A stretch of 64,000 nucleotides of DNA from Linanthus parryae. Lineage: Eukaryota > Streptophyta > Magnoliopsida > Ericales > Polemoniaceae. A program made the translations under genes and the position numbers. Positions 3,936-62,823 of the stretch are shown in pieces. Positions within the stretch are counted from its first letter, which is position 1; the number at the start of each line of letters is the position of its first letter. Under the pieces are notes generated by a model that ran no database searches, was not told where the DNA came from, and saw only the letters and a list, made by a program, of their open reading frames with translations. The stretch is from contig JALGPY010000015.1 of assembly GCA_023055425.1 (NCBI GenBank), positions 2,602,001 through 2,666,000 on the forward strand, read 5' to 3'.

Positions 3936-3960
3936 GATTCAAGTCGGGCACTTGTCTGAA

Positions 3961-6800: not shown

Positions 6801-6804
6801 ATCG

Positions 6805-7455: not shown

Positions 7456-7456
7456 A

Positions 7457-8533: not shown

Positions 8534-8550
8534 GGTTGCTTGCAAGCGTA

Positions 8551-8573
8551 GGTTTCACGTTGGGTTCACCAAA
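8551..8573 (-). promoter_or_regulatory. Primer-binding site of Tat copy 1
   Basis: Immediately inside the LTR the minus strand reads TTTGGTGAACCCAACGTGAA. Copy 2 has TTTGGTGAACCCGACGTGAA in the same place. I do not assign the priming tRNA. Confidence 0.7.
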
Positions 8574-39200: not shown

Positions 39201-39289
39201 GACGTTCTCCTTCAGCAATTTTCTCAAGAAGAATGCGACATATGCTTGGAAAGAAGAGCACCAGACCATGTTGTAGAAGTTGAACCCGA

Positions 39290-39727
39290 GTCATGATCGC
39301 GCCACATCTTGGAGCACCTCTACTTCTTTATATCACTTCGACGAAGAAATCAATTGGGGCATTTCTAGCTCAAGATTTTGAAGTCCAGGAAAGACCCATT
39401 TACTATATCTCGCGCGTGATGCAATCTACAGAATCCAGGTACACATATATTGAGCGGCTCCATTCTCTATTATTTGTCATTGGAAAGTTGAATAACTACT
39501 TCATCTCTCGTAAAGTGATTGTGATAACCAAAAGCGACCCTATCCGATACTTGTTAGGGCATTCTTCTCCTTGTGGGAGATTGGAGAAATGATACATGAC
39601 CATATCGCAATATGACATCACATGCATGCGTCCAAAGGCCATTAAGTCCCAAGCAGTGGCGGACTTGCTAGAACAGTTCCCGGACAAAAATTACGAGCCC
39701 ATGACAGAGGAGATACTTGAAGGACCA
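39290..39727 (+). pseudogene. Retroviral-type RNase H of Tat copy 2
   Basis: LLLYITSTKKSIGAFLAQ, RPIYYISRVMQSTESRYTY, KSDPIRYLLGHSSPCGRL and IKSQAVADLLEQFPD, in order. One in-frame stop near 39590 separates the last part. Confidence 0.85.
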
Positions 39728-40155
39728 TAAGTATACTCGATCGAATCATCTCACGAGAAAGTTGCATTTCGATGGTTCGTCGACAAGAGCAGGAGGAGGA
39801 ACTGGAATTGTCCTCACAAATCCCGAAGGAGAGGTAATCCAGATGTCAAACAAACTGGACTTCGCAGTAACCAACAATGAAGCTGAGTACGAGGCTTTGA
39901 TTGTAGGCCTCTTCGCAACCAAGGCTTTAGAGGTTCGGAATTTGATTTTGATGGGAGATTCAAAGTTGGTCGTACAGCAAGCTTCAGGCGAGTATGGTTT
40001 AAAAGAGATCAACTTGTTGAAATAGAGGACCATTATGCAGAAGCTGGTTCAGAGGTTTGACTTAATCAAGTATGAGCACACTCCTAGAGCCGATAATCGA
40101 CATGCAGATGCACTAGCCACTCTAGGGTTGAAAATCAGCGCAAGTTTCCGGCAAA
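39728..40155 (+). pseudogene. Archaeal-type RNase H of Tat copy 2
   Basis: LHFDGSSTRAGGGTGIVL, NNEAEYEALIVGLFATKA and LMGDSKLVVQQASGEYGL carry the D, E and D catalytic positions. The end continues after a stop at 40022 as VQRFDLIKYEHTPRADN, with HADALATL near 40110. It is the lineage marker, as in copy 1. Confidence 0.85.
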
Positions 40156-41781
40156 GATCTCGATCGTGGTAAAGTCAACTCCCTCACTAATGAAGGATTT
40201 ATGCGAAGACGAATTCATCGAAGTCAAATACTAGAGAAATCCGGTAATGCGTGCGATCACAGAAGGAACAAGCAAGGAAATTTAGGTGTCCACGAAGGGA
40301 TTCTGTATACACGAAAACTTGCTATATTTCAAAGGACTCGGAGGTATCATAATGCGATATGTTGCATAAGAAGAAGGACAAGATGTGCTAGAGAAGATTC
40401 ATGAGAACTCTTGTGGATAAATGATGTCCCTATTTACAGGAAAGCCCAGAGGTATGGGATTCATTTGCCTGAAATGGCATGCTATGATGCGATGCTGCAA
40501 GGCAACTGTGAGAAATGTGCACTGCTGAAAGATTCTCTAGAAATTTCTGCAATTGATGATGTTGATTGGAGGAATTCTCTAATTGACTATCAGGGAGAAG
40601 AAACCCTACCGAGTGACAAGAAGGAGGCAGACAAGCTCAAGAAGGAATCAACTCAATACGTTTTGAAAGAGAACCTGCTATGGCAAAAAAGACATGATGG
40701 GAATTTTCTTAGATTCATGAATGGTTAAGAGACACAAGAAGGGATGGAGTTATCGCATCAAGTGGATCATCAAGGAGCCGCGAAACTCTGCAAAAAACTT
40801 TTTTCTGTAGGCTATTTTTGGCCAACCATGGAGGCTGATTTTCGAGCCAAAGTCAAACGCTTCCAATAGTGCTAATTCAACAGCAATCTAGTGCATGCTC
40901 CCATAGTTGATCTACATGCGCTAGGAGCTCCTTGGCCATTTCATACATCAGATTTTATTGGTCCGATCCGTCTAGCATCGCATGCAAATCAGTTCATTCT
41001 AACTGGAACAGAACAATTCACTAAATGGGTAGAGGTAGTTCCTCTCAAAACAGAAAATGCATTGGCAGTAGTTAAGTTCATTCAAGAGAACATCATTTAT
41101 CGTTTTGGGATTCCTAATACGATCCTATCTGATAATGGAACTCCTTTTGTCAATCGCCAAATTGCCTCGAAGCTGATGGAGTACAATGTGAGCAGGTATG
41201 CTCGACGCCCTACTATCCAAAAGGAAACGGGCAAGCAGAGGCCACAAACAAAACGTTGTTGAGGATTCTAAGCAAGATGGTCGCGGAAAAACATAAGAAG
41301 TGGGCAGATTTCTAAGTCTAGCATTGTGGGCTTATCGCACCTCACCAAGAACTCCTACAAGAGCTTCTCCTTTCTTGCTTCGCTATGGAGCTGAAGCAGT
41401 CGTTCCCACTGAGGTCAAGTTTAATTCAGCAAGGTTAGCCTTTAGTGCTCTATATGAAAATCAACGCGATCATGATCTTATTTTACTCGAGGAGAAGCGC
41501 GAGCAAGCCAAGAGAACTAATACAGGGTACAAGGAAAGGATTTTTCGAGCATACAGCAAGACCGTTCAGCATCGAGATTTTTGCCGTTGCAGATTTAATT
41601 CTGCGAGCTTCTGACCATTGCATGTGCGAAGCAGCTCACCCCAAGTTTGCGGCCAACTGGGAAGGAACATTTGAGGTAAAATAAGTCTTTTATACTGGCT
41701 ATTGCAATCTTGAGATGTCATGGGACTGCTATAACTCCCAGCCCAGTTAATATGTGATGGCTCAAGAAATACTATCCTTAG
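40156..41781 (+). pseudogene. Integrase of Tat copy 2
   Basis: The zinc region is LSHQVDHQGAAKLC with the Cys pair lost (VKRFQ then a stop near 40868). Catalytic core: SDFIGPIRLASHANQF (first Asp near 40950), ILSDNGTPFVNRQI (second Asp near 41130), and GNGQAEATNKTLL in a shifted frame near 41225 (Glu). The C-terminal part is RTSPRTPTRASPFLLRYG, then KFAANWEGTFEV, ending with WLKKYYP and a stop at 41779-41781. Upstream, 40411-40728 is an open stretch with CYDAMLQGNCEKCALLKD. Confidence 0.85.
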
Positions 41782-42515: not shown

Positions 42516-44776
42516 TCAAAGGTTACAACTCAAGAATGCTTCATAAAAATAATACTGAGGATCTTCGAATAAATCCTTGAAAAGTGAGTCTTGAGCTCCT
42601 AAACCTATAGAATCCTTGGCCCATTGATCTTGGTAGCTCTTATGTTGCTGATGTTCCTTTTTCACCTTTTCAAATTGTGCCACGGCTTTTTCAATTGCTT
42701 CCTTTTGGGCGCGAAGATTAGCACTTTCCACATGGTAGTTTTCATAGCCAAATCTGAGCGTGACACAATTGCTAATCTTCTTTAGCCTCTGAATGAGGAA
42801 GTCGAAGTTGAGCCGCCCTTTCGAAACGTGTTGAACACCTTGAAATTGTGTCAAAAAGTATTGCACATTTGTAAGGGAAATGGTCGCTGGAGTTGTGTTA
42901 CTTATCCTCTCCATGAGATCTACTATCTCAGTAAGAAGATCTTTCCTATCTTCGGGTGCCAACTCGTCATGAGCCACTTAAAAGATGATTGCTTCAGGCC
43001 TGCATTTTCAAAGAACAAATATTAGCAGCCATAGCTTATAACAATAAAACTTCATAACTTGTCAAAATCATGTATTTATTTGAAGCATTACTAGTGCCTT
43101 CAACTATGTCTCGCATAGAGGGAATCGAAATTGAAGTTGTTGTAGCTTGATCATTGCTAGAGGCCTTTGCTTCGGCTAGTCGCTTATCAACGAGAACTTC
43201 TTGATCAAAGTGTTCTTCTGGAATGATACAACGTTCCTCAGTTTTAATTGTTGCGAAGGCTTTTGTAGCCCAAGCTCCCTAAGGGTTGTGGGCAAGAAGT
43301 GCTTCCAGATTGGGATCATATTATCGAGCCTCGTCATGGGATTCTTCGCCCAGCAGCCCAGAAATGGACAAGTGTGTGCTCTAAGTCCTTGCGCATATAC
43401 CCACAGTCACGACCATGGGAGTATTCACTCTTGAGGTTGAATTCTAAGGAGGCCCATTCATTTTCGCGTTAAAACCCGGTATGTTGGGTCCTTGAACTTC
43501 TCGGAGTTGAGCATTTTCCATATCTTGGTCTGGTGCGCCGCTACTCGCGTTCGACTCATGCTCATTTCTTCCTTAATTGGTTGGCACAGCATTTCCAGGT
43601 GCGACATTACGTTGGGTCTCACAGGATGAAGCAGTGTTGGCTTCTGGAACTTCTGGCACTTCATGGGACACAAGAGCTGAAGTGTTCCCTTCTTTCTGAG
43701 CCTCAGTTTGCTCATTTTTTCTAGGAGTGGCCTCTGCTGTCACACCGGTTGTGGGAGAAACGTTCGATGGAATCTCGGAAGCAGTAGCAACTACTTCCCG
43801 TTGAGTCCTAGTTTGCTCAGCATTTTCAACAAGGGGGTCAATTCTTTGCGAAGCCTCGCGAGTGACACGCGAATCAACTTCATGGGGCGAAGTGATTATC
43901 GCCTGTTGAACCACATCTTGATTAGCATGCTCAATACTTGTCTGTTCTTGCTCCTGCCGAAGGTTTCTCCTCTTCCTCTTGCTCAATGATGAGATCAAAC
44001 CGTTCATCCTTAATGTTGGCTCCATCCCCGACAGTTCGAGCTTCAGGTGTTTGTCTAGTTTGATCTTCCATAATTACATCACTGGGATCTTCACAAACGG
44101 CATCGGGGACACGAACCACAGCACTGCGAAGCCTACTGGCTCTTCTTGTTATCAACGTCTCAGTCTCTTCCGAAATGAAAATTTTGTTTGTTAGCACACA
44201 CAAGTTTAAAGAGTCATGTTGCCAAACTTGAAGAGCTTATGAGGAAAAGACACCTCCACATTCATATGGGATATCTGCGTAACTATTATATCGGAGGTTA
44301 TCATCAATTCCTTTAATCACCGCATGACCTGGTTACGTGCGAATCATTATTACCATTGTTTGAAGGTGATAAGTTCGAGTATAGCGGTTCTAAAGGAGTT
44401 GCTTACCTGATGCTTCCCCGCATTGATCCACTATCCAGTGAAGAACGTGACTTTTAGATACCCCGTGGTTTAATGCTTTAAATATAAGTTCTTGATATGA
44501 TAAGGAAAATTTGAATCCAGTACCTTATTCATCTCCCTCCCCGACGATCTCCTGAAAGTCCTCTTGCGCGCGCTGCATTTGACCAACAGTTGACCGCGAG
44601 CGCTGTTCTTGCTCTTCAAGACTCTTCTTCAAAGCTTCTTGAATTTGGCGTTCCTCCTCCGGCTTCTCATTTCTGGCTCTTTCTTCGGCCATGGATTTAG
44701 ACTCTGCAATCGCCCCTTCTTCAATAAGATCCTCCAATTCCTCCACTGATTCCACGCTATCTGTGATATATATACA
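42516..44776 (-). pseudogene. 3' exons of the antisense PMD gene of Tat copy 2
   Basis: The terminal exon 42977-42516 encodes TPATISLTNVQYFL, KGRLNFDFLIQRL and a coiled-coil tail, matching 103-596 of copy 1. A GAAAATGCAG acceptor near 43005 precedes it, and the GTAATGC near 43117 would be the donor, in the same place as the intron at 25-102 in copy 1. Upstream exons (44203-43080) are low-complexity and Glu/Thr/Ala-rich (EQEEEEKPSAG), with repeats of EV-P and AEQTRTQRE. 44755-44525 is a Glu-rich coiled coil (EERARNEKPEEERQIQEAL). A stop lies just before the terminal open stretch. No domain name is given for these exons. Confidence 0.6.
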
Positions 44777-45080
44777 CTATCAAAAATGGCACACGCGATG
44801 CGTCTGCAATCACCACTGGCATAAAAAAAAAATCAAATTGCGACATATATACACATAAAATTTGGCTGGATTATATTATTTTGTAAAATGTCAATGAATA
44901 GATTACACGACTGTCTTTTCTCAAAAAAAAAAAAATAATACACGAATATATGAAAGAGCAATAACTTTTATTGAAAGGAGTTAAATACATTACATAATGA
45001 AAATGAATGAAAACTCGTAGGTATACTATGAAGCTGACAGAAGTACGTCGTTGTCGACAACATTCTTAGTATCCGACCCT

Positions 45081-45365
45081 TTATTTCAACGGATAATTCC
45101 ATCTTTCACCAGCACCTTTGTTGTATTTTTGGAGAAATGCAACATGCAACTGCCCGTGACTGAAAACATGTTCCCAGAGATAAATGCCGACATGTGGGAT
45201 TGTCTGACCTTGCGCGTTGTTGATGGTTAGTGAAAAACTAAGCCGAATTGGGAATTTCCGTCGCGTCATATCGAATGGTAAGCTCACATTCTCTACTGGT
45301 TTTAACGAAATACGATAGTGGGGAACTCTAGTACTTTTGAAGTGCCCAGCCAAATTATGCATCAA
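45081..45365 (-). pseudogene. PIF1-like helicase C-terminal fragment (Helitron)
   Basis: The frame encodes FPIRLSFSLTINNAQGQTIP and GIYLWEHVFSHGQLHVAF. These are the last two helicase motifs of Helitron PIF1-like helicases (the TIN-x-x-QGQT box and the HGQLYVALSR box); the second has lost its Ser-Arg. Only about 90 residues remain. It would have unwound DNA during rolling-circle transposition. Confidence 0.8.
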
Positions 45366-46109
45366 TGAAATACTCCTTCATACCACGGCATATCTACAAT
45401 ATCCAGTTGAAGTGAAACTAATCAACTAATCACAATGCCTTATTTATTTAATTAAATTCTAATATAAGCAAGTAAGTTGCTAACTAAAGTAAGTGCCATC
45501 CGAATTTTTGCAAAAAAAGTTAAGTGTAATCTAAGACTTTATTTACGGAATCATTTTCGACTATCTACAATATCAAACAGATCGCTTTGCTACTTATATT
45601 TTACTCACTTCACTTTACTTATTTTCTCAATAACTGAATTCCACTTATTTCACTAACTTCCCACAACCTAGCAAAAAACTACTTACATGAGAGTGACTCA
45701 GCTAAGACCGAAGAAGTGAATCCAGGAAATTGAGCCACGAATGAACGGCAATGGTAACCAGAGAGCACGAAACTGAGACACAACATAAGTTTCAATAGGT
45801 ACTTATATGATCCGATAACAGTGAAATAAGAAAGTTCTTCTCATTTTTCTTTTTCACAGTGAAATAAGAAAAAAATTACAGCCTCTGAACAAAAGAGGAA
45901 AGTCTGGCACAAAACTAAGTTAGTATTGAATCATCCTGCACTATGGGTTAGCTGATGTACCACACTATTTGTCTCCCTGAAAACATGATGGATGGAGAAG
46001 CTGAAACAATTACGTCCAGTGAATTCATATTAGTGTTCGGGGGTGTGTGATTTTTCTTTTTGTATTTAAATTGTGTAACTTAGTGCATGTTTGGCACAGT
46101 GAGACAAGG

Positions 46110-47420
46110 ACTGACCTGAATGCCAAGAACGACTACTCAGCCCCGGCAAACTAACCCGAGAGCACAACCGATAAAAACCTGGATAACAAACAAATATTGT
46201 GCAGCCAACAGACTTTTTTCCAGTATTAATAATGCGAAAAAACTAAACCAGTGAAGAAAGTAGAAGTGACAGAGAGACAAAGAAATACAAAACAGAAAGT
46301 AACAATTATTTGGGCTCTGGCCTGAGTGCAAAGAACGTCTAACCAACCCCGGAAACTTCCTCGAGAGCTGATAACGACCAAATCCTGAAAGATAAATAAA
46401 CATAAACAGGTGATCGATTCACTAAAACAGCGAACAAAATGAAAGTAATTGAGAGACGAAGAAACTTAAAACTCAAACCACCAATTGGTGAACTCACCGG
46501 AGTGTGAAGAACAACAAGTCGACCCATAAAAACCGACTTCGGAGCCCAAAACGGAAAAATCCTGTGTAAACAGTGAAATAAATTGAAGCAATTGAGAGAA
46601 AAGAACATTCACACATCCACCTTTTGTTATACAAACTCACATATAAGAGCAAATTGAGAATGAAGTGACGGTGAATCTTAAAGGGAATTCAAATTCTAGT
46701 GTAACAATGTGATAACCCAGAGCCAAGGAATGCAAACTTTATTGTTCAAATGAAGCCAATGGTTGAGAAACGGGAGGAAAGACTATAGACTGAGCACCAA
46801 ACTGAAACTACGAAAAAAGAAAACACCAAACAAATCAAAATTAATTACAGTGACAGAACTACTAAACATACCAAACCAAGATTAATTTCTTCAATTGAGT
46901 ACGTCTAGAGGTAGTTAGGCGAACTTCAGACTGTTGCAAGGAAATGGAATGAGTGCTTGAGATTGAAACAAAAGAAGAAGAAAAATGAAAGAATAATAGC
47001 ATGTAACAGAGTACAACAAAACCAGGAGAAAAATGTTGGAACAAAAATTATGGCATGTGGCGTTTCAGGATCTGAACTGGAAAAAAATTTGCGGACAGAC
47101 CCGAGTGGCATGAACAGCTAATATACCCCAATAACAACAAATCGACCCACAAAAACCTTGATAGCCCAGCACCGACAGAACATATGTCAAACAATGAACG
47201 ACATTGAAGCAATTAAGAGAAAGAAATCGAAAAATGAAACAATAAATTACTTACCTGAGTGCCAAGAACCACTAATAGACCCCACGAACAACAAATCGAC
47301 CGACAAAAACAGTCTTGAGAGCCCAGCAAACAGTGAACAAAATTGAAGCAATTGGGAGAAAGAAATCGAAAACTGAAATAACAAATTACTTACCTGAGTG
47401 CGAAGAACAACTAATCGACA
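46110..47420 (-). repeat. Six-fold diverged repeat inside the Helitron
   Basis: A unit with the core CCTGAGTGCCAAGAAC-ACTAAT recurs near 46117, 46321, 46498, 47101, 47254 and 47396, with spacings of about 140-600 bases. Several share 'gacccac-aaaaacc' and 'ttgaagcaattgagaga' segments. On the minus strand two copies end CACTCAG followed by GTAAGTAA, a strong splice-donor-like sequence. Confidence 0.6.
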
Positions 47421-47876
47421 TAGAAAATTCAATTTTAGAGGCAAGGGCGAACAAAACCAGGAAGATAAATTGTCTGGGGTGAATTAGTAAATTGGGGTGT
47501 AGGCGTAAGTCGTCTGCATCATCGGTTTTATGGGAGATGAACAATGGTCTGTTGGAAAACTTCAAAAAACAAAAAGAAACTTAAAAAAAATGGTCTGTTG
47601 GAGATGTTGCAAACTGGGGGACGTGGGTTACGTGAAATTTGGGGATGTGGGTTACCTGAAATTGGGGGATGTGGGTTTTGTAAATCAATTTGACCATTAT
47701 GCCCTTATATGTGATAAATACTTTGTTTACTTTTCACATGGTAATTAACAACATATTTGGGAGGGCAGAATTTTGAGGTCAAAAATGTGACGGGCTTCAC
47801 TTTTTTTATTTCACCAAACTTGGCGTTTGTTTTTTATATTAGTATAGATATGCGCATTATGAGAAAATGACTCATA

Positions 47877-49731
47877 CTATTTGAAGAATAACGGAAATGC
47901 GATGTTACTGACTTCTCTCATAGCAAGGGATGTATCAGGTTTGTACTCCACAAAGTCCTCTGTGTTGCGTTGTCGCATGTCAGCAACTTTACCTCTTCCT
48001 CTGGTCTCCACTCTCTCTCTTGGAGCAGGGTTGTTCTTTGGAACGGGGTAGTTCCTTGGGCGATTTACTTGCCTAGACACTCTGAGGCCCATCACGTCTG
48101 CTGAAGGTTCATCACAAGCTTTCTTCTTCCTTGGATTCTTATCAGATTCGGTGATCAATAAGATGAAGTTTGCAAGCGCGTTCCAGACCTGATCCTGGAT
48201 TTCTTGAGGCATTCTCATCTCAGGCTCAATAGCGACATTTGATTTGTCTTTTGCACGCAGGACGTCGGCAAATCCTGTACTTCGATCCCCAGACGCGTAT
48301 CTCCTGAAACAGCACTATAAAACAACAAGTTTTAGTATCGCATATGCTCGCATCGCACTCAAGAATGAGGAGAAGGAATCGTTGAAGTTACCTTGTTGAA
48401 ATCGTTAGCATAAGTCCTCCTCGCATTATAAGACTCCTTCTTCACCACATCTGCCTTTTCTCCCAAAATCAACTCCGGACACAGATGGTGTTCTCTGTCT
48501 AAAAAAGAATAGAAACTGTATTGAGTCGCGTGCCTGGAGCATGACGACTTGAATGGACAATCCCCAATTCTGAGGGCAGGAGCCTTGATGGGCTGGAATT
48601 GAAGTTTGGACCTCATATGGAGGCGAGTTTGCGCATTCCAGAATGCGACCCAATTGTGAGTCAACTCTACTTGCCTTTCTCGGGAAGGTTGGGTCAGAGG
48701 AAGCATGATAATCAGTAAGTCATTACACTTACCATATAGTAACCTCTTGTAGCAGCCGCGAACAACCGAGTCATAGTACAAAGGAGGAGCCACCACATCA
48801 AAGCCCAATTGGGGGATTACTCGAGCTGGATCGTAGTGAACCGTTATCAGTTTATGACTTGAGCATTCTAGAAGGGCCTCGTACTCAGTAAGGGAGGGAA
48901 AGTATCCTCTTCAACACCAGTTGACGAATCTGGAGTAGCAACGCGAGCCCTTGGAGATATGCGAGGGAGAAAATGGTGTGTCTTTATCAGGATACATGGC
49001 TTCATGATGCACGATGTTCTCCAAGGCCAGAACGTAAGGCCTAGCCAAAAATTAACTGACATTGTCGCACATCAAGACAAATGAGCGTTTCACGCCTTTT
49101 GTTTTGTACCAACACCATGCGCACGTACAGAGAAACTCTTTCTTGGCACTCGGCACATTCCACTTTTCAACATAAGTTGGAATTGGAGCGTATATAGTCC
49201 ATCTCTCGAACACCCACATCGACAGAAACGCAACGTTGACGTAAGTTACGATGTTAACTCTACCTTGGGACTGTTCAGCATGCGTCATGGCCAAGTCCAG
49301 ACGATAATAAAAAGACCCAAGGACCAAAGGCCCTAATGCCACCTTTTGACCAAGAGAAAGGCGAAATGCAAGCGCGAGGACGTGGGTGAACACACCGTCA
49401 TGAGGGTGTCCATCTATGAGATACCTCGAGATTCAGACACAGAGGAAACCGCACAATGAATAGGCGGAGCCTCTTCCTTCCAGCAAAGTTGACGCGTCTT
49501 TATTCATCTTCAATATTTCTTGAGCAATCTTTTGCTTTGCGAAGTCAGGGAAGAAATAAGTAATCCGCTTCGACCACAGATTCTTCGCGCTTGTTTTAAA
49601 TAGCAGGTGCTTCTCCGAAGGGGTGGTCAAGATCCATCTTGTGGTCGTACTTTTTTTTTATTACCCTATACACTCCTTCATCTGATCGAAGAGGAGGATC
49701 TCATCGTCTAAATCCAAAGGGGCCGAAAAGG
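47877..49731 (-). pseudogene. Core of the antisense PMD gene of Tat copy 2
   Basis: This is the plant mobile domain (aminotransferase-like) core. HPHDGVFTHVLALAFRLSLG is followed by VALGPLVLGSFYYRLDLAM and FLSMWVFERW (near 49410-49190), the recognisable ALAPLVLxxLYxxL and WxWERF features of the family. Further along are LGFDVVAPPLYYDSVVRG, a stretch ending near 48359, and an Arg/Pro-rich segment (48218-47877). Five or more frames are used, with introns plausible. The gene was cut by the Tekay element at 49736, and the N-terminal part lies at 61120-61650. PMD proteins in plants act in silencing and development; here it is retroelement cargo. Confidence 0.75.
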
Positions 49732-49736
49732 TTCAC

Positions 49737-52700
49737 TGAAACAACCCGGGATCTCGGTTCAGGGTTAAAGAGACAATCGATAACCAAAAGTAGAAATATA
49801 GTTACGAATAATTACATTTTATTTAATAAATACAACAAACTTAAGAAGATACGTTTACAAATGTAATGCGATTGAAATAAGCTATGTGAACTACTAAGTA
49901 ATCTAACTTAAGCTAAACTTCTTTGTCTCGATTCACGTTCCCATCCCCCACCTTGATTGATGACCTGCGGTTTTAAAATGGCAACACCCGACGGAGTTTT
50001 GAAGAAAATAATCAGTCAAAACTGAGTAAATACATACTACGACATGTACAGCAACGAGTGGCACGAAAGCATGAGTTGAAACAAAACAGAAGATTTAAAA
50101 CAATAATAGTAACATGTTGGGGATTTTTGAACAACTGAAAGTAACCGAATAACAAAACCTCTCAGTTTAAGAACTTTAAGAAACCATAAGTATTCAGTGA
50201 GATCTCCAGAGTAAACAAGTCCATTTGAGTTGATAATGATATTAATTCACGAGTAGCATATGCTTTTCAGTTCATTTAATTATATTAGGCAATCAAGAGC
50301 CACAAACAACATCAATAGAGTAATCAATCTTTCTTTCAATTACAATTTAACCATTAAGTTAGCTGAGGCATGTCCAGAGCCACCAGCAGGATCGATGTAG
50401 ACAGAGGGATCACGAAGTAATCACAAAGGGCTCCTTCTAGGGTCTATCAAACCCTATTTCACCCGAGCGTTAAGGGAGCCCATTCGTCAACCCCGCTAAC
50501 AACATTAGCTAAAAGGCCTTAAGTGTCGACACCCCTATACCGTAGTGACCCTTACAAGTATAAGTAGCACTCTATAGCTCTATAAACCCCTTGGCCTCAA
50601 TATCTTGATACATTTTGGCTCATCAGGGGCGGATTTGTGAACATTAACGTTCTATCCAATAATAAGAAGCATTGCTTCAATGGTTTTAGCCATAAGAAAA
50701 TGGAGGATCGCTTGACGCCTCCCATTCATAACAGTACTCTGTACATCGTCCTAAGTCTATTAGAGGTATTTTATTTCTTCTCTTTCACATAACCAGAATC
50801 AGAATATCAACATTTCACAAGTAATTTCCGAGAGTTCTCAAAGGAGATGAATAAAATAGTTTAACAACATTCGAGTGGAAAACATGCATTCTCATACGTT
50901 TTCATATAACAAGCATTCATTTGAAACATCACACACATGCACACATTTGATATGAAAAGGTCGTACATATTTACTTTCCTCTGGGCCATGAAAGGTGCAA
51001 AGCAAAGCTAGCACTCCTACAACGCTCGTCTCATATGAGTCCGGGTCTCACAGTCAATGCAGCGATACGAACACGTACGTCTATTTGGTACGAGCACAAT
51101 TGTTGGATATAAACAAGTCAAGTATACAGTCTATTAGCATTTACCCTCTAAGGTTGTATGCAAGAATGCAATGGAATGCGGGTCGTGCAAGATAAATGAC
51201 CAAAACGCCCCTAATACTCCAAAACTGTCCATTACCGTCTCTAACTCTGCCTGGACCCCAAGTTATACTCATACTGGCCCAATAACATACAAGAATGACT
51301 CATAAATCTCCCATATGAACTTAGCAACGAAATCTACAATTTTGAGTAAATTACACTTAGTCCCCTAAAGTTTGCTAAAATTATAGAAAGACCCCACCAT
51401 TGATTTGATAACTCCCGAGTCAAATACTTCCTTCTTAAGACTTCAAATATCCTTCTAAGTCAAGTTTTTGTCTCAAAACATTAACCTAGTCTCAAGTAGT
51501 TCAAGTGTGAAGTTTTAATTAAATTCACATAGGCCCCCGAAGTTTAGTAAAACTGCAAAAAGACCCACCACATTTGACTTGGTCCACTTACACACAAGTA
51601 CTCCAAATACGCATACAATACATGCTGACGAACTCCAAGTTACTAAACGAATCTCACTTCAAAGCTAAGTGAAATAACTAATTTGCCCCTCCTGTACAGT
51701 TCAGTCAGACTAAGGTTTTCGAAAAGTCAAACTTGCTCAAACTTGATATGAAGACCCAGTATATGAATACGAACAAGTTTCGTGAAGAACGTTAAGGCCA
51801 GAAATTTCATTCAAATGGTCCAAACCGAATATCAAAGATAGCGAAAAGTCGTTTCAAGTAGTCAACTTTGCGGCTGATTTCTAATCAAATGAGAAGGATT
51901 TTTGAGAGACTGGAAATAAGGTTTTGAAGATTACAGTTCAAGGATTCCAGAACATATTTGTACTCCTAGAAAGTCCAAGTATTCAAAGAGATATCGCTAC
52001 TCAAAGTTGGACAAAAATTCCGATTCAATACTTAGAAAAATCCACTAGTGCTTCAAGAGTTCAAACTAGAAACTTTAGGCTCGTTTTGTGAGAAATCCGT
52101 TACAAATGTGAAGATGACCCTGAGACGATGAAATGAAGTATTATGTATCAAATTTACATAGGAGAAAACTGATCTAAATTTCAATAATTTTCGAAGAAGA
52201 TACAATGGTTAGAAAATGGGTGTTTCACCATAGGATTCTATACTTGGAAAATTTTGACCACTTGACAGCCTAGAACACAGCACGAAATCAGCAACTTCAA
52301 CATGATTTTTAGGTAGTTTAGAAACCGAATTAGACAAAATTAAAAACACGAAAGTTGTAGACAATCATCCGAGGATTCCAGAAAGCTAAAGATCACTCAA
52401 AACGGATTACAAACGAAGGAGATACAGGCATTTGAACAGAGGAGGTTTATGAACCCAAAAACCATGAACTACAAGAATCAAACTATGATGATTTTTTATT
52501 AAATTCACGATTGGATGATCTAAACGTGTTCTATACATGATAAGGAGCATGATCAAGCTTTCAATCGATCAAAACAAGAAAGAAAAGGGTCTGTACCGAG
52601 CTCCGACGAACTCCTCGCCATTCTGGGTTTATTGAAGGGTCTTGAGATGTCTATAGGTCATAGGGGAAGTCGCATGGAGGGGAAGAACGGCCCAGAACGA

Positions 52701-55700
52701 AGCGAACGCCGAAGCTCGACGTTCACCGGCGGTCCATGTCGGGTTTCCAAACCCAGACTCCGGCGAAGGGTCAATACGTCGACCCATAGCTTGTTTTTGG
52801 GTTCCCTAGTTGTGTGTGGTCACGAGGATCATAAATCCAATACCCAATTTGATTAATTTTCAACAAGGAAGAAGAATTGATTGATCAAAACAACTAGGGT
52901 TCATGAGTGTTACCTTTGATTTTCACCTCAAAACTCGGTGAAATCTCAAATTAATTTGTGCATTTTACTCCAGGTGTTGGTGGCTACCTCCGGTAGTAGC
53001 AGAATCGTGAAAGAAGGAGTGGTGGAGGTGGTGGCTGTGTTGGCGATGGTTGTAACACCCCTAATTCCCGAGAGTGTTCTTAAGTGAAATATCAAGTCTT
53101 TGGAGGCGAATTTGTAAATTGTCTGTCACGGCTTTATAGTTGGCATTTTGGAGCGTTGGCAATATTTGGAGGTTGTTAGAATTATTTTGAAGCACTTGAG
53201 ATATTTGGGGTGGTTGTGCGGTTCTCCAAAAGTAAGTAGAACCTCTAAATCTAGTTTGTACCCCAAACTTTAGGAAAACTACACTTTCGCCCCTTTTTCA
53301 TGTGAGAAACTTGTCAAACTTCATTTGAAACCTCTTCCCTCATGTGGAAACACCATCCTATCCTTCCCACATCCTGAAGCAGTTGAGAAATCACCAAAAA
53401 CACCATTTTTCTCACAACCTCCTTCTCCCTCATGAACATCACCATGAACCACTACCACCACAACCAAAGAACTCCACCATAAGGCTTCCTCTTTCCGACC
53501 TGCTGCTACCGGAGGTAGCCATCGATCCCAGGAGTAAAATGCACAAAACGATTTCAAAAAACAAGGAGTATCAAGGGAGAAATTCGGGTTGGAAGGTAAG
53601 AACCCTAGTTTCAGTTTTTCATCGATTTCTCCCTCCTTGTTGTAACCCAACACAATTGACCCACATATTCTTGTTCCTTGTGTCGAGGCGAACTTGGGAA
53701 GCACAAGCACGCCCTGCAAATCGCCGGACTTTGCTCCAGCCACCGTGCCGCCGCCGCCAAACCTCCATGGCCGACCGGAAATGGTAACTCCTTCATTTCT
53801 CCACCAAATTCGATGTTCCTCACATCAATGTGATCCCCATGACCTTAGGAATGCATTAGAAGCATCGAAACCTTCCCAGGTTTTGGTTAGGTTCGAGTTT
53901 GATTTCATGTTTCACTCACTTTGTTAGTTTTTCCGACATGCAAAGTGCCCCGTTAAAATGCTTGTATCTCCCTCAATTTTTATCCGATTTGAGCGATCCT
54001 AGACTTTTTGGAATTCTCAAAAAATTGGCTACAACTTTCATGTTTAAAATTTTTACCAATTCAGTCTCTAACCCAGCCAAAAATCGAGTTGAAGTTGTTG
54101 TGTTCGTGTGTTTGAGCTGCTTGTTCATGCTGAGTTTTTCCCACCTGCATTTTTTGTCCAACTTTGGACTGATGTATCTCCCTCGTTGTTAATCCGTTTT
54201 GGATGATTCTTAGCTTTTTGGAAAGCCTGGACATAGTTCTACAACTTCTATGTTGATTTCTTGGTTTGATTTTGCCTCTAAACAACCTTAAATTGGAGTT
54301 GAAGTTGATACATTTCATGTTCTTGAATCTGTCCGGAATCAAAAAAAATCTAAGTGTTGGGCTTTGGGTTGAAGCAGCCAATTTCAAACGATCATAACTC
54401 TCTCAATTATTCATGAAATCTTTTGTTTCATTTTCCTATGTGTAGCTGGAACATAATACTTTGAATCATCGTCTCTGTGTCATCTTCAAATTTATAACGG
54501 ATTTCTCACAAAACGAGCCTAAAGTTGCTAGTTTGAACTCATGAAGCACTATTGAATTTTTCTAAGTATTGAATCGGAATTTTTTTCCAACTTTGAGTAG
54601 CGATATCTCTTTGAATACTTAGAAACTCTAGGAGTTCAAATATGTTATGGAATACTTGAACTGTCATCTTCAAAACCCTATTTCCAGTTTCTTAAAACTC
54701 CTTCTCAATTGATCAGAAATCAGTCGCAAAGTTTACTACTTGAAAGGACTTTTCACTATCTTTGATATTCGGTTTTGACCATTTGAATGACATTTATGGC
54801 CTTAGCGTTATTCACGAAACTTGTTTGTATTCATATTCTGAGTCAAAATATCAGTTTTGACCAAGTTTGACTTGTTGGAAACCCTAGTTTGACTGAACTG
54901 TATAGGAGGGGCGCAGAGGTAAGTACATACGGCCTTTGATTATCAAAATGCTTGTATGTGTGTGATGTTTTAAGTGAATATTTTTGTTATATGAAAAAGT
55001 ATGAGAATGCATGTTTTCCACTCGAAAGTTGTTAAACTATTTTATTAATCTCGTTTGAGAACTCTCGGAAATTACTTGTGAAATGTTGATATTCTGATTC
55101 TGGTTATGTGAAAGAGAAGAAATAAAATACCTCTAATAGACTTAGGACGATGTACAGAGTACTGTTATTAATGGGAGGCGTCAAGCGATCCTCCATTTTC
55201 TTATGGCTAAGACCATTAAAGCAATGCTTCTTATTATTGGATAGAACGTTAATGTTCACAAATCCGCTCCCGATGAGCCAAAATGTATCAAGATATTGAG
55301 GCCAAGGGTTTTATAGAGCTATGGAGTGCCACTTATACTTGTAAGGGTCACTACGGTATAGGGGTGTCGGCACTTAAGGCCTTTTAGCTAATGTTGTGAG
55401 CGGGGTTGACGAATGGGCTCCCTTAACGCTCGGGTGAAATAGGGTTTGATAGACCCTAGAAGGAACCCTTAATGATTATTTCGTGATCCCTCTGTTTACA
55501 TCGATCCGACTGGTGGCTCTGGACATGCCTCAGCTAAATTAAACTGTTGATTGAAGTCGAAATTAAAAATTGACTACTCTATTAATGTTTTTTGTGGCTC
55601 TGGATTGCCCTAATCAATTGAAATGATTTGAAATGCTTTGGCTACTCATGAACTAAGTTATTCTCTTAAATGGACTTGTTTACTCTGGATATGTTACCAA

Positions 55701-56553
55701 GTACTCGTGGTTTCTCAATGTTATTAAATTGAGAGGTTTTTGTTACTCAGTTACTTCCAGTTGTTCCAAATTCTCCACATGATAGTTTTACTGTTTAAAT
55801 CTTCTGATTTGTTTCAACTCATGCTTTCGTTCCACTCGTTGCTTTACATGTCGTAGTATGTATTTACTCAGTTTTTACTGATCAATTTCTTCAAAATTGC
55901 GTCGGCTTTTGCCATTTTAAAACGCAGGTCATCAACCAAGGTGGAAGATGGGAACGCGAATCGAGACGAAGACGTTTAGCTTAAATTAGATCACTTAGTA
56001 GATCACATAGAATATTTTAAATCACATTAAATCTGTAAACTTATCTTCCCAAATTGTTTTATTTATTAGCTAAACTGTAATATTCGTGAACTTATTTCTA
56101 CTTTTGGTTATCGATTGTCTCTTTAATCCTGAACCGAGATCCCATGTCGTTTCAGTGGTGGTTGTATGGTGGAGAAAAAGAAGATGATGAAGATGATGTC
56201 TCTCTCTCTCTCTCTCCTTCTCTCTCTCTCCCTCTATAATCTGATGGTGGGCGATGTGAAGAAGAAGTTACCACCTCACCTAGAGAAGTGTCAAAATGAG
56301 ATTGCCAAGTGGCTTTCATGCAAGGGGGGTGAAAGTGTATTTTTCCAAACTCTAGGGTATATATTCTACTTAATTTCAGAGAATTACACAAACACCTCAA
56401 ATATTTCTAGCGCCTCTAATTCATTCTAACAACTTCCTAATATTGATAACACTCCAAAATTCCAACTTTAAACCCGTGACAAACTATTTACAAATTCACC
56501 CCCAAAGTCTTGATATTGCACTAAGAACTCTCCCAGGAATTAGGGGTGTTACA
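49737..56553 (-). repeat. 3' LTR of the Tekay-like element, interrupted
   Basis: Two parts, 56553-56155 and 53050-49737, together about 3.7 kb. A block at about 52595-53010 is absent from the 5' LTR. The insertion between the parts is an opposite-strand solo LTR. A (CT)n run lies near 56200-56240. Confidence 0.85.
53051..56154 (+). repeat. Solo Tekay-like LTR in the 3' LTR, opposite orientation
   Basis: Runs from TGTAACACCCCTAATTCCC to CATGTCGTTTCA on the plus strand, 3104 bp. Flanked by ATGGT (53046-53050) and GTGGT (56155-56159), a 5-bp duplication with one change. The sequence aligns along its whole length with the complement of 57819-61119. The short ORFs in it are not genes. Confidence 0.9.
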
Positions 56554-56575
56554 GTCTATCCACCTTAAAAGAATC
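56554..56575 (-). promoter_or_regulatory. Polypurine tract of the Tekay-like element
   Basis: The minus strand reads GATTCTTTTAAGGTGGATAG and AC, then TGTAACACC. The pattern CTTTTAAGGxGGxTAGA before TGTAAC is usual for chromoviruses. It overlaps the last pol codons. Confidence 0.75.
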
Positions 56576-56790
56576 TTCGTCCCCGAAGATCTCGTACTAT
56601 AATTACCCTCATACATGAAATGCACATGAAATGTAGCACAGTGACTCAGTCTATTTGACTTGGCCAGACAAGTACCTAAACCGCTCTGGTCGAATGTTCT
56701 GCTCCCAAAAGATGGCTTCCTTAGACGGTCAGCTAGAAACACCTTAATTGGAAGAAATTCCTCATTCTCACTCCACACGGCGAGGTCTAT
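56560..56790 (-). pseudogene. Chromodomain-end remnant of pol (Tekay-like)
   Basis: Read through frameshifts, KEAIFWEQNIRPERFRYLSG matches the EEATWExEDxMRxxYPxLF end of the chromovirus chromodomain. GDEDSFKVDRL and a stop at the LTR follow. The rest of gag-pol is gone. Confidence 0.5.
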
Positions 56791-57804
56791 ACTACATAAC
56801 AGCCTAAACTCGCTTCACATTAGGGTTTCATATAATATTAGCTCAAGTAAAAAGGGTCGCACTGAATTTTGAAAAGCTAGACCAAAATGCAATTTCTCAC
56901 GTTTACAAAGCAATTTGAAAATATTCTAGAATTTAAACAAATATCAAAACGTTTAGAAAAACACTTTGATCGAAACTAACACGTAATTTTTCTTGGCTCA
57001 TACGCATTAAAAATGTGGTCTTACCTGTATAGGATTAGATACACCAATGATATCAAGTGTTCCACGCATACGAGGGGGAAAAGAATACTATGTGTCGTCA
57101 CACACGTGTCTCTCCATCACAACTCGCATGTGTTTCTAATGTTCCAACTTAGCCTACACAGCGGGTACAACTTATAGTACCGTCGTACTAACAGTCGCGC
57201 CAGCGGACTGGTAAACAAAGCGATCCATATCACTTGGCATTTGGTAGCTCGAAACGCCAACATTTTTTTTTAGGAAACCATTTTATTTATTTATTTTATT
57301 ATTATTTTTTAAGAATACTTTAATGTGAAAGCTTTCATTTTTTTTAAAGAACCATGTCAAATTAAGTCGAAATGAAACAAGACAAAGCACAGTCTTAAAC
57401 GTCGCCGTTCGTAGGTAAGAAAAGAATAGGTTAGGGTCTTCTAAGTCAAACGTTGATACTCTCATGCCGATAAAGTAATATGAAAACATACATAGTCATA
57501 GATACGCATTACACAACAAAAGCAAGCATTTCTATATAAATAAGTGTGTCACAAAAGAACAACACTTGTAAATAGCAAGTAATTTTTAACAAATCACGTC
57601 TCTATGAGACGCTAACATTTAATCAACGAATACGGTACAAATCGAGTTGCACAAAACTTAAGTACCCAGACTCCCTGACGGCTTGTTTACTTCATTTATT
57701 CCCAAATTAAGTTATCCTATTCAATTTTAAAATTTTGAAAACATTTTATATTTCTTATTCTCTACTAATGGAAATCGAAAAGTCACTTTAACCGGAGAAC
57801 CGAT
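56791..57804. other. Deleted interior of the Tekay-like element
   Basis: AT-rich, no readable domain in any frame. It probably holds the leader and sequences fused by the deletion that removed gag and most of pol. Confidence 0.4.
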
Positions 57805-57816
57805 GCTCTGATACCA
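57805..57816 (-). promoter_or_regulatory. Initiator-Met primer-binding site of the Tekay-like element
   Basis: The minus strand reads TGGTATCAGAGC, then ATCGG, two bases inside the LTR end at 57819. Exact match. Confidence 0.9.
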
Positions 57817-57818
57817 GC

Positions 57819-60800
57819 TGAAACAACCCGGGATCTCGTTTCAGGGTTAAAGAGACAATCGATAACCAAAAATAGAAATATAGTTACAAATATTACATTT
57901 TATTTAATAAATACAAAACTTAAGAAGATAAGTTTACAAATGTAATGCGATTGAAATAAGCTATGTGAACTACTAAGTAATATAACTTAAGCTAAACTTC
58001 TTCGTCTCGATTCACGTTCCCATCCCCCACCGTGATTGATGACATGCGGTTTTAAAATGGCAACAGCCGAAGCAGTTTTGAAGAAAATGATCAGACAAAA
58101 CTGAGTAAATACATACAACGACATGTAAAGCAACGAGTGGCACGAAAGCATGAGTTGAAACAAAACATAAGATTTAAAACAATAATAGTAACATGTTGGG
58201 GATTTCGGAACAACTGAAAGTAACCGAATAACAAAACCTCTCAGTTTAAGAACTTTAAGAAACCATAAGTATGCAGTGAGATCTCTAGAGTAAACAAGTC
58301 CATTTGAGTTGATATCGAAATTAATTCACGAGTAGCATATACTTTTCAATTCATTTCATTAGATTAGGCAATCAAGAGCCACAAACAACATCAACAGAGT
58401 AATCAAACTTTCTTTCAATTCCAATTTAACCATTAAGTTTAGCTGAGGCATGTACAGGGCCACCAGCAGGATCGATGTAGATAGAGGGATCATGAAGTAA
58501 TCACAAAGGGTTCCTTCTAGGGTCTATCAAACCATATTTCACCTGAGCGTGAATGGAGTCCATTCGTCAACCCCGCTCACAACATTAGCTAAAAGGCCTT
58601 AAGTGTTGACACCCCTATACCCTAGTGACTCTTACAAGTATAAGTAGAACTCTATAGCTCTATAAACCCCTTGGCCTCAATATCTTGATACATTTTGGCT
58701 CATCGGGGGCGGATTTGTGAGCATTAACGTTCTATCCAATAATTAGAAGCATTGCTTCAATGGTCTTAGCCATAAGAAAATGGAGGATCGCTTGACGCCT
58801 CCCATTGATAACAGTACTCTGTACATCATCCTAAGTCTATTATAGGTATTTTATTTCTTCTCTTTCACATAACCAGAATCTGAATATCAACATTTCACAG
58901 GTAATTTCCGAAAGTTCTCAAAGGAGATGAATAAAATAGTTTAACAACATTCGAGTGGAAAACATGCATTCTCATACAATTTCATATAACAAGCATTCAT
59001 TTGAAACATCACACACATGCGCACATTTGATATGAAATTGTCGTACATATTTACTTACCTCTGGGCCATGAAAGGCGCAAAGCAAAGCTAGCACTCCTAC
59101 AACGCTCGTCTCATATGAGTCCGGGTCTCACAGTCAATGCAGCGGTACGAACACGTACGTCTATTTGGTACGAGCACAATGGCTGGATATAAAGAAGTCA
59201 AGAATACAGTCTGTTAGCATTTACCCTCTAAGGTTGTATGCAAGAATGCAATGGAATGCGGGTCGTGCAAGATAAATTACCAAAACGCCCCTAATACTCC
59301 AAAAAGGTCCATTACCGACTCTAACTCTGCCTGGACCCCAAGTTATAGTCATACTGGCCCAATAACATACAAGATTGACTCATAAATCTCCCATATGAAC
59401 TTAGCAAACGAAATCTACATTTTTCAGTAAATTACACTTAGGCCCCTAAAGTTTGCTAAAATTACAGAAAGACCCCCACCATTGATCTGATAACTCCCGA
59501 GTCAAATAATTCCTTCTTAAGACTTCAAATATCCTTCTAAGTTAGGTTGTTTGTCTCAAAACATTAACCTAGTCTCAAGTAGTTCAAGTGTGAAGTTTTA
59601 ATTAGATTCACATAGGCCCCCGAAGTTTAGTAAAACTGCAAAAAGACCCCCCACATTTGACTTGGTCAACCATTGCCCATAATTACATACAAGTACTCCA
59701 AATACGCATACAATACATGCTGACGAACTCCAAGTAACTAAACGAATCTCAATTCAAAGCTAAGTGAAATAACTAATTTGCCCCTCCTGTACAGTTCAGT
59801 CAAACTAGGGTTTTCGAAAAGCCAAAATTGGCAAACTTGATATTAAGACTCTGAATATGAATACGAACAAGTTTCGTGAAGAATGTTAAGGCCAGAAATG
59901 TCATTCAAATGTTCAAAACCGAATATCAAAGATAGAGCAAAGTCGTTTCAAATAGTCAACTTTGCGACTGATTTCTGATCAAATGAGAAGGATTTTTGAG
60001 AGACTGGAAATAGGGTTTTGAAGATGACAGTTCAAGGATTCCAGAACATATTTTTACTCCTATAAAGTCTAAGTATTCAAAGAGATATCGCTACTCAAAG
60101 TTGGATAAAAATTCTTATTCAATACTTAGAAAAATTCACTAGTGCTTCAAGAGTTCAAACTAGAAACTTTAGGCTCGTTTTGTGAGAAATCCGTTATAAA
60201 AGATGACCCTGATACGATGAAATGAATTATTATGTATCAACTTTACATAGGAGAAAACAGATATAAATTTCATTAAGTTTCGAAGAAGATACAATGGTTA
60301 GAAAATGGGTGTTTCACCATAGGATTCTATACTTGGAAAATTTTGACCACTTGACAGCCTAGAACACAGAACGAAATCAGCAACTTCAACATGATTTTTA
60401 AGTAGTTTAGAGACCGAATTAGACAAAATTTAAAACACGAAAGTTGTGAAAAATCATCAGAGGATTCCAGAAAGCTAAAGATCACTCAAACCAGTTTAAA
60501 ACGAAGGAGATACAGGCATTTGAACAGGGTAGGTTTATGAATCCAAAAACCATGAACTACAAGAATCAAACTATGACGATTTGTTATTACAGTCACGATT
60601 GGATGATCTAAGCATGTTCTAGACATGATAAGGAGCATGATCAAGCTTTCAATCGATCAAAACAAGAAAGAAAATGGTCTATGTTGGTGGTGGTGGTGAA
60701 GGTGGTGGCTGTGTTGGTAGTGGTGGTTGTATGGTGGAGAAGAAGAAGAAGATGATGTCTCTCTCTCTCTCTCTCTTTCTCTCCCTCTCCCTCTACAATC

Positions 60801-61119
60801 TGATGGTGGGTGATGTGAAGAAGAATTTGCCATCTCACCTAGAGTGTTTTCAAAATGAGATTTTCAAGTGGCTCTCATGCAAAGGGGGTGAAAGTGTATT
60901 TTTCCAAACTCTAGGGTATAGACTAGAATTAGAGACTCTACTTAATTTCTGAGAATTACCCAAACACCCCCAAATATTTCTAGCGCCTCAAATTCATTCT
61001 AACAACTTCCAAATAACACTCCAAAATTCCAACTTTAAAGCCGTGACAAACTATCTAGAAATTCGCCCCCAAAGTCTTGATATTGCACTAGAACTTTCCG
61101 AGGAATTAGGGGTGTTACA
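57819..61119 (-). repeat. 5' LTR of the Tekay-like element (3301 bp)
   Basis: Minus strand from TGTAACACCCCTAATTCC (61119) to CGGGTTGTTTCA (57819). It aligns with 49737-53050 plus 56155-56553, lacking one 0.4-kb block. A (CT)n run is at 60757-60795. ORFs within it are low-complexity and not supported. Confidence 0.9.
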
Positions 61120-61650
61120 TCCACGTTTCCCATGTAGGGAAGTTCTAATAGAATTTCCACATCCTCGAGAGTAGGACCAGCTTCGAAGGTCGAGAATTGA
61201 AATGTGTGGGTTTTCTTTGAATACCTCGAACACAAGTTCATCGGCAGGTCGTTATCGAGCCTGACGCTCGACCTCTTAGTCGCGCGCACAGCATGATATA
61301 TTCTGGCACGGGTGAGTTCGGACCCGTAATGTTCGAGGATGTACTATGTCCACCCTTCCATCCATTTCAGCTTCTCTGTCAAAGTTTGGTGGAGAATATC
61401 AGTGAAGGGATACAACCCAGCTTCGAGACCGAACCGGTTTACATCGTTGATGTTAACAAGATCCCAATCATCTCTCTCCGGTTTCAGTCGTCAAATGCAG
61501 AGCATCTTCTGCCAGGGAGCTTTTAAGCTTCTTTTCACTGATAGTTGCCAAGTATAAATCTTCCCCTCCCAAAAACAGGGCCTTGCACCACAAATCCTTG
61601 GGGATTTCTGGTAAGTCGGTTGCCTCTTTTGAAATTTTGGTGCGCGCCAT
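61120..61650 (-). pseudogene. 5' coding part of the antisense PMD gene of Tat copy 2
   Basis: From the ATG at 61650-61648 (MARTKISKEATDL) it reads through one frameshift near 61470 and one stop near 61355: GLYPFTDILHQTLTEKLKW, RATKRSSVRLDND, then TFQFSTFEAGPTLEDVEILL and ELPYMGN. The GPTLEDVxILLxLPxxG stretch is the N-terminal hallmark of the PMD (usually GExTxTLEDVxxLLGLPxxG). The Tekay element cuts it after MGNVD. It continues at 49731. Confidence 0.75.
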
Positions 61651-62193
61651 CTCTATTGCATACATAACACAAGAAAAACGAGCATCAAAGATAAACCCAG
61701 ATCTGCATGCCTGCTTGATTTGAATTTTAAAAATATGAGGATTGCGTTATTAAAAGAGGAGATCTGCTAACCTTGTCGTTGTCTAAACGTTTGAAGCGTT
61801 AGATTAGCGGTGTCTAACAGTTGATTGAAGGTTGCAATCTGAGTTTGAAGACTCTCTCTCTCATGCTCATAAACCTTGATGGCAACAGTGGCGTGAAAAG
61901 TTCTAACTGTTGGAGTGGAATGGTTTATATAGAGTCTTTTGAAGACCCTGACCATTCAAATCTTTTCGAATCAATCACTACCTCGGTAATCGGCATAAAT
62001 ATGTGAATTTCGTTCTCAATCCTCGTCATGCCATGCCCTAATAAAGGCAATACGATGTTACAGAGACCTAGGCAATGATGATTGCTTGTGGAGATATGGC
62101 TTTCGATTTTAATTTGAACTGATTCGAGAATCTGCATGGAGTCACGCACGACTGGGTTTGCGCGTTTACACAACGACGCGCGCGATACACGCG
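61651..62193 (-). promoter_or_regulatory. Promoter and leader of the antisense PMD gene
   Basis: On the minus strand a TATA box CTATATAAACC (TATATAAA at 61931-61924) lies about 275 bases before the ATG. A possible leader intron runs from GTTAGC at 61771 to a TGCAATAG/AG just before the ATG at 61650. The same CTATATAAACC is in the antisense promoter of copy 1 (about 944). The stretch 61932-62193 has no other gene that I can support. The start of transcription is inferred. Confidence 0.45.
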
Positions 62194-62207: not shown

Positions 62208-62823
62208 TGTAGATAGTGCATTCCAGACAGATCAATCACCATCCACGTGGAAGCCATACAGGAGGTTCGATGATACTACAGTATCACTCTACACTCTTTA
62301 TATTCACCCTTATCCACATGTGGGCTGTGACACAGGGTCGCCCTCGTATAATAACCGTGCGGGATTTGTAGGGTTCAAATGGCTTAGAGGCTAGAGTAAG
62401 GCACGTCGCACGCGAGTACGAGCTATTCTCGCGCGCGACCCTTGTCAATTGTCTGAGAGATTTGATGACCACGTAACCTATATACGCGGTCGACCATTAG
62501 AATGCTCCCTATATATACGGACGATCGTGTAATGTGTTGAGTATATAAGGGCAAATGTGCCGTTACGAGGAAGATATCTAGCCGCCATTTGCAGACGCAT
62601 TAACTCCTCGTAACGTTCACTCCTATGCCCTATATATAGGAACATTGGCCTTCTGTGGCAGCTCTCGGATCTTTTGCTAATCATCATACCGTCTCTCTCT
62701 CAGACAATTAGCAAGAGCTTACTCTTCCCCCACACTTACTCTCAGTCTCTCCGTGCTTTGTTCTTTCTCTTGTCTGTTACAGGTGTACACTGAGATCTTC
62801 CCTACAGGATCCCCTTGTACACA
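62208..62823 (+). repeat. 3' LTR of Tat copy 2 (616 bp)
   Basis: From TGTAGATAGTGC to TTGTACACA. Closely similar to 26643-27263. Followed by CCAAT, the target duplication. Confidence 0.9.

Follow-up and report, generated by a model that had tools for sequence, protein, structure and literature searches.

The window analysed here, a stretch of 64,000 nucleotides (nt) from Linanthus parryae (contig JALGPY010000015.1; G000:C30:2602001-2666000 in the 1.51 Gb genome that was searched), contains a plus-strand Tat-type Ty3/gypsy retrotransposon, hereafter named element B, and a second element of a related Tat family, copy A. Bioinformatic analysis showed that Tat elements of this genome carry a plant mobile domain (PMD, PF10536) gene between the integrase and the 3' long terminal repeat (LTR), in antisense orientation and common to diverged families. 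In the group to which the window copies belong, the gene has several exons, and element B bears a decayed member. The gene of element B lies antisense to gag-pol in the interval from integrase to 3' LTR, the place that defines open reading frames (ORFs) of the aORF-3R type.

The minus-strand pieces in element B proved to belong to one PMD gene. In Pfam, the piece 61343-61038 matched PF10536 with 37.4 bits (cut-off 34.9), and the piece 49657-48392, in which X replaced the three stops, matched with 40.2 bits (E 3e-10). The shorter piece 49432-49055, which covers a segment (49410-49190) from which the original prediction had also expected a match, gave 29.7 bits on its own and stayed under the cut-off. 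With reverse transcriptase (RT), RNase H and integrase on the plus strand, these matches confirmed the claim of an antisense PMD gene in a plus-strand Tat element. The succession RT_RNaseH, RVT_3 and rve, found in both elements tested (B and E1, an element introduced below), places them in the Tat lineage. The antisense pieces submitted to Pfam gave no match to TRP28 (PF04195), the domain of antisense ORFs in Retand elements. A 567-aa piece compared with a protein database, a collection perhaps poor in plant proteins, yielded 3807 word candidates and 0 matches at E 0.001, and no relative of the PMD protein was found among solved structures, the single match being at chance level (E 0.95).

The gene model comprises one intron in the 5' untranslated region (5'UTR) and five that separate coding exons, and copy A has a counterpart of every one; the e3/e4 donor is uncertain in B and the e5/e6 acceptor is altered. 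Two gaps first taken for introns had to be read anew. The gap 61119-49737 was rejected as an intron, being a later LTR element (element C) within the PMD exon, flanked by a near-matching target duplication (GTGGA/GTGAA, read on the gene strand); e1 and e2 of B correspond to a single continuous exon in copy A. The gap 47877-44761 was retained with a qualification, as an intron enlarged by an insertion and short in L040, a close relative of B. The insertion includes a helicase-like piece (45377-45084) with no Pfam match above the cut-off, and appears to be a Helitron-like remnant.

In-frame stops interrupt the PMD exon of B at 61346-61344 (TAG), 49435-49433 (TGA), 49054-49052 (TAA) and 48913-48911 (TGA), and the open frames on either side of a frame change near 61470 differ. 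Owing to five stops in all, this frame change, element C, the intron insertion and the altered exon 6 acceptor, the B copy is dead and unable to encode a PMD protein now.

Table 1. Coordinates of the antisense genes, the retroelements that carry them and the nested insertions in the window.
Feature	Position	Strand	Remarks
TATA-like box, B gene	61931-61924	-	TATATAAA; ~280 nt upstream of antisense ATG
5'UTR intron	61653..61771	-	CAAG/GTTAGC..AATAG/ag-ATG; copy A arranged alike; splicing predicted from sequence
e1, initial part of first coding exon	61120..61650	-	ATG 61650-61648; PMD profile positions 2-59 at about 61301-61125
e2, second part of PMD exon	48392..49736	-	PMD profile positions 104-292 at about 49492-48785
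Intron e2/e3	48315..48391	-	77 nt; FNK/GTAACT..TTATAG/CCFRR
Exon 3	47878..48314	-	Basic linker following PMD; 3' end uncertain, L040-suggested donor altered in B
Intron e3/e4	44761..47877	-	Lengthened by insertion
Exon 4	44407..44760	-	One stop within B copy
Exon 5	44254..44328	-	75 nt; from comparison with A, L040 and L057
Exon 6	43092..44169	-	5' end approximate; L040 acceptor TTTCAG is TTTCGG in B
Last exon, e7	42516..42999	-	Acceptor AAAATGCAG/GC; stop 42518-42516
Element B, 5' LTR	26643..27263	+	Initial bases unlike 3' copy; followed by primer binding site (PBS)-like TTTGGTGAACCCGACGTG
Element B, pol	38653..41259	+	Frames broken; Pfam
Element B, RT	38653-39042	+	Pfam
Element B, RT_RNaseH	39284-39589	+	Pfam
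Element B, second RNase H (RVT_3)	39705-40022	+	Pfam
Element B, integrase core (rve)	40876-41259	+	Pfam
Element B, 3' LTR	62208..62823	+	Polypurine tract AAAAGGGGGC immediately upstream
LTR pair of later element nested in B	29613-30893 / 36698-38028
Element C, later LTR element within PMD exon of B	49737..61119	-	PBS-like TGGTATCAGAGC on minus strand
Copy A, gag to integrase	2339..8554	-	Element of related Tat family
Copy A antisense gene, window part	1..596	+	Exon 6 end 1-24, intron 25-102, last exon 103-596
Second antisense unit of copy A	942..1437	+	TTCTATATAAACC with ORF 985-1437; L057 has a related unit

Recurrence and selective constraint of the antisense gene

Copy A had been credited with the terminal exons of the same gene in the same place. 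The gene of copy A is indeed the same and its splice sites match, but the window holds only the end of exon 6 and the last exon; the remainder lies in the 10 kb preceding the window (L025, 6003-10000). Exon matches there share 51% (6314-6529), 50 and 41% (6611-7814), 22% (7937-8299) and 44% (8556-8741) identity with B, and the splice sites fall at matching codons, e.g. FSK/CCLRRFASGDR in A and FNK/CCFRRYASGDR in B. The PMD of copy A reached 58.3 bits against PF10536, and its antisense gene is also broken. Over 1513 codons, secondary frame matches included, dN (nonsynonymous divergence) between A and B was 0.65 and dS (synonymous divergence) 1.44; a cleaner comparison was saturated.

L057 (C1:146640499-146645498; PMD 60.8 bits), which is related to copy A, has exons 2, 3, 4, 6 and 7 open, with exon 1 partial in the stretch examined. 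Its junctions e4/e5, e5/e6 and e6/e7 were seen entire with GT..AG, and of e2/e3 and e3/e4 the acceptors were visible. Among nine relatives of B (L043-L051), the e2/e3 junction was readable in seven, with donor GT in all seven (one displaced 1 nt) and acceptor AG in five (one displaced 2 nt); one acceptor was lost and one was unresolved. A further copy, L041 (G000:C52), shows an apparent internal deletion joining the middle of exon 2 to the last exon.

The genome was searched with three queries (last exon, PMD piece and B integrase), each of which returned at least 150 matches, and pairs were counted among the matches listed. All 29 PMD/last-exon pairs within 8 kb (B included) had the same strand and gene order, 21 of them with a spacing of 3.3-3.6 kb, some matches being used in more than one pair. 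Last-exon/integrase pairs within 8 kb lay on opposite strands in 7/7 cases, 1.6-1.8 kb apart (B included), and PMD/integrase pairs within 12 kb followed the expected order in five cases and not in one. A single position-shifted control gave 0 pairs for each of the three pairings.

Nested insertions are frequent in the window, which would suit a host PMD gene, or some other transposon, having entered B by chance in one later insertion. This explanation is hardly credible, as the same gene, orientation and place recur in copy A, L039, L057 and the listed pairs, and the splice codons are common to A, L039, L040 and L057. Its way out would be segmental duplication, against which the divergence of the copies, ~20-65% at the amino-acid level in most exons, speaks. 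A separate later insertion, which the original prediction had named as its possible undoing, was thus not borne out.

A second set of PMD genes, group E, comprises six dispersed loci (E1-E6; L011-L022) with PMD ORFs of 614-963 aa. In E1-E5, RT and/or integrase lies on the strand opposite the PMD ORF; E6 shares 98% identity with E5 along 5 kb, and its PMD reached 119.3 bits against PF10536. The genes of E1, E4 and E6 are uninterrupted over the stretch read, and those of E2, E3 and E5 each have one break.

Purifying selection, proposed earlier as a check, was found in the antisense coding frames. For the last exon of B, omega (dN/dS) was 0.107-0.217 against 10 of 11 targets, copy A being saturated; L030 and L032 were omitted, as L040 and L041 are longer stretches of the same copies. 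For the PMD exons, omega was 0.16-0.46 against all nine of L043-L051. The integrase of B gave 0.07-0.30 against four of the same loci, and group E pairs within subfamilies gave 0.19-0.28 in 5/6. For four group E pairs all six frames were compared, and those other than the coding frame showed 0.98-1.98, save 0.25-0.37 for the opposite-strand frame with shared third positions. The antisense gene is less constrained than pol, for which omega was 0.07-0.12 in five comparisons. The antisense coding frames have therefore been under past purifying selection. The stable passenger of the original prediction agrees with these data, the gene being common to diverged Tat families, constant in position and strand among the pairs examined, and selected. 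Neutral baggage, a captured gene carried without effect, would fit the stops present in both window copies and in many of the listed matches; the constraint on the coding frame, found in comparisons with ten and with nine relatives as well as inside group E, makes it very improbable.

Promoter motif, intron differences and exchange of the unit

The TATA box predicted upstream of the B gene is present, and the pattern YTATAWAAR was found 254-884 nt upstream of the ATG in 7/8 genes. With the 5'UTR intron, this conserved TATA-like motif suggests a promoter of the gene's own, as had been claimed. The shared motif would also serve an antisense unit acting as RNA, which pairs with genomic RNA and tunes silencing, the protein being of little weight; such a role was raised for antisense ORFs in general by Vicient and Casacuberta (2020, PMC7264820). 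A coding-frame omega far under 1 speaks against this explanation, and splicing would cut the stretch available for pairing, so that it is considered improbable.

E1-E3 have an intron ahead of a coiled-coil-like tail, for which only weak Pfam matches under the cut-off were obtained. In E4-E6, the homologous tail (28-31% identity) is intronless in one ORF, a stop in E5 cutting the final residues; other full-length matches, at ~50% identity, continue without an intron-sized gap. Loss through reverse transcription of spliced antisense RNA and gain in E1-E3 could each explain this difference.

Comparison of E4 with E5 revealed an exchange of the gene. Six 250-nt windows ahead of the promoter region, where the 3' LTR is expected, showed 95.6-98.0% identity. 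Over the promoter region and gene, for which windows of 100 or more aligned columns were counted, identity was 70.9-87.6%. Starting with the stop codon, 23/25 windows showed 94.4-99.6%, the remaining two having 92.8 and 88.4%. Correspondingly, dS was 0.59 for the gene and 0.20 for a part of the integrase. Unequal protein constraint fails to account for this pattern, and recombination explains it, because the interval between gene stop and pol, without a listed ORF of 220 aa in E4, is also at least 94.8% identical. In this one clear case, the whole antisense unit has been exchanged between otherwise ~97% identical elements. E1 against E2/E3 showed a similar trend (dS 0.40-0.46 for the gene, 0.16-0.17 for pol). 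A swap of the gene of copy A is not claimed, the conflict between integrase and PMD trees (A, B, L039, L041) being not significant. The last exon of copy A shares 29-38% identity with the other last exons, which share 59-85% with one another, its integrase being 64-79% identical; rapid change or exchange of the 3' part of the gene may lie behind this divergence.

Proposed mechanism and relation to known systems

The joint reading of these results is that Tat elements carry a selected, exchangeable antisense multi-exon PMD gene with its own promoter, whose spliced RNA encodes a nuclear accessory regulator; as a whole, this is judged probable. Transcription would start at the TATA promoter near the 3' LTR, and the transcript would be spliced as ordinary mRNA to give a nuclear accessory protein with PMD, basic linker and coiled-coil-like tail, which may regulate the transcription or chromatin of its own element. 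The introns would survive reverse transcription because their antisense orientation makes them no splice substrates in genomic RNA. The unit could pass between elements, template switching being the simplest route. That the product is a nuclear regulator of the element is a guess from the basic linker, the coiled-coil-like tail and the likeness to Grande gene23 (PMC7264820), and action on host silencing is a possibility suggested by family membership.

A bolder version is held to be doubtful. It proposes an exchangeable cassette holding an entire RNA polymerase II gene whose introns are shielded by antisense orientation, the intron missing from one subfamily marking a retrotranscribed, spliced antisense mRNA and diverged gene types being kept in nearly identical elements by an arms race of the protein with PMD-based silencing of the host.

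Several observations weigh against the joint reading. As to arrangement, no pol was found in the stretch of E6 examined; among five loci picked by integrase alone (ranks 2-6), the last exon stood at the usual spacing only in L054 (1.4 kb inspected); and in L055, extended as L057, the gene lies ~2.3 kb farther off, beyond a second antisense unit. As to the promoter, YTATAWAAR is not matched in copy A; when each stretch was shuffled 300 times, the pattern also arose in 5-25 of the shuffled sequences, and as the genes are related, the motif is worth about three observations. As to selection, B against its closest copy L040 gave an omega of 0.40 over all exons (exon 2 0.51, exon 6 0.87), exon 6 is weakly constrained in 5/5 loci (0.46-0.88), the very close pair E5-E6 gave 0.76 from 21 changes, and nine pairs between E subfamilies were saturated or almost so.

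The PMD protein may alternatively counteract silencing, in competition with the PMD-C/PP7L pathway of the host. MAIN and MAIL1 of the PMD-C clade act in silencing with the partner PP7L (PMC7156037, PMC5418596), and basic stretches follow the PMD in the translations of A, B, E and L057. In Ikeda (2017, PMC5418596), however, the Gypsy PMDs fall in the Gypsy-only clades PMD-A1/A2, apart from PMD-C. In a tree of PMDs from this genome only, without reference PMDs, E1-E6 formed one clade and E0 (a further PMD locus) with A, B and L039 another (support 100 each), both separate from five PMDs of genomic clusters. An anti-silencing role is accordingly regarded as unlikely, with a real share of the probability left to it.

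The preferred reading, a selected antisense accessory gene, has several known relatives. Extra ORFs with PMD in Ogre/Tat elements were reportedly described by Steinbauerova in 2011. The gene studied here resembles them in encoding a PMD protein outside gag-pol in a Tat-type Ty3/gypsy element, and differs in its several exons with common splice sites, its promoter motif and the single cassette exchange observed. The HBZ gene of human T-cell leukemia virus type 1 (HTLV-1) is likewise an antisense accessory gene of a retroelement; it is spliced and encodes a protein of an animal virus unrelated to PMD. HBZ is cited as an antisense retroviral gene in Vicient (2025, PMC11963269). In Neumann (2019, PMC6317226), PMD occurs in 57% of Ogre elements, and extra ORFs are open frames of at least 250 codons, so that exons cannot be shown by such calls. 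The antisense position between pol and 3' LTR is shared with aORF-3R of Retand, RIRE2 and Grande gene23 (PMC7264820, PMC11963269). Grande gene23 is reported in the same sources to have its own promoter and to encode a nuclear protein, whereas the antisense ORFs of Retand contain TRP28 (PF04195), SMC or other domains. The main text of these two papers contained 0 occurrences of 'PMD', 'mobile domain' and 'intron', and the listings of open-access literature that were searched showed neither a multi-exon antisense PMD gene nor a cassette exchange of one. The multi-exon architecture, the intron present or absent by subfamily and the one clear whole-unit exchange would thus go beyond the known PMD extra ORF.

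PMD ORFs of such elements are known; the gene model, which includes a promoter motif, splice sites and exons under selection, and the intact relatives within a single genome make expression and function directly testable. Surveys restricted to ORFs can overlook or truncate intron-bearing antisense genes. The cassette exchange is a natural experiment in which gene types can be compared within a single element background, and the gene bears on the relation of the host silencing proteins MAIN and MAIL1 to retrotransposon PMDs.

Neighbouring features and other PMD genes

The LTRs of element B differ at 71 of 614 aligned columns (Kimura two-parameter distance, K2P, 0.126). At an LTR substitution rate of ~1.3e-8 per site and year, the element would be near five million years old. 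Element C spans 11.4 kb, and its LTR copies match over ~2.9 kb at 94%. Inside it lie an extra inverted LTR-like copy (about 54173-56553) and, at 53321-53824, long open frames on both strands, the minus frame having no Pfam match.

The ORF of the second antisense unit of copy A (985-1437) had no match in Pfam or NCBIfam. The related unit in L057 (391-771, minus strand) has a TATA motif GCCTATATAAACC and a short ORF with 42% identity to it over 105 codons; the omega of 0.81 is no proof of a protein. A tandem array with units of ~53 bp (1760-2121) adjoins the antisense gene of copy A, and in Retand elements tandem arrays are reported in the corresponding region (PMC11963269).

E0 (L009/L010, G000:C57:122930000-122946000) has a 678-aa PMD ORF of the window gene's clade and a downstream ORF. 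No convincing pol was found in the stretch examined (single weak match, E 0.004), and E0 may be a defective element or a copy that the host has adopted. Dense PMD clusters hold 46 (C57, 126.3-127.7 Mb) and 14 (C46, 154.9-155.9 Mb) of the 127 PF10536 matches of the genome. They comprise L001-L004, L006-L008, L026 and L027 (G000), and many of the matches are open, with 300-377 bits. These clusters are a large local expansion, and the five members tested are distinct from the retrotransposon PMDs.

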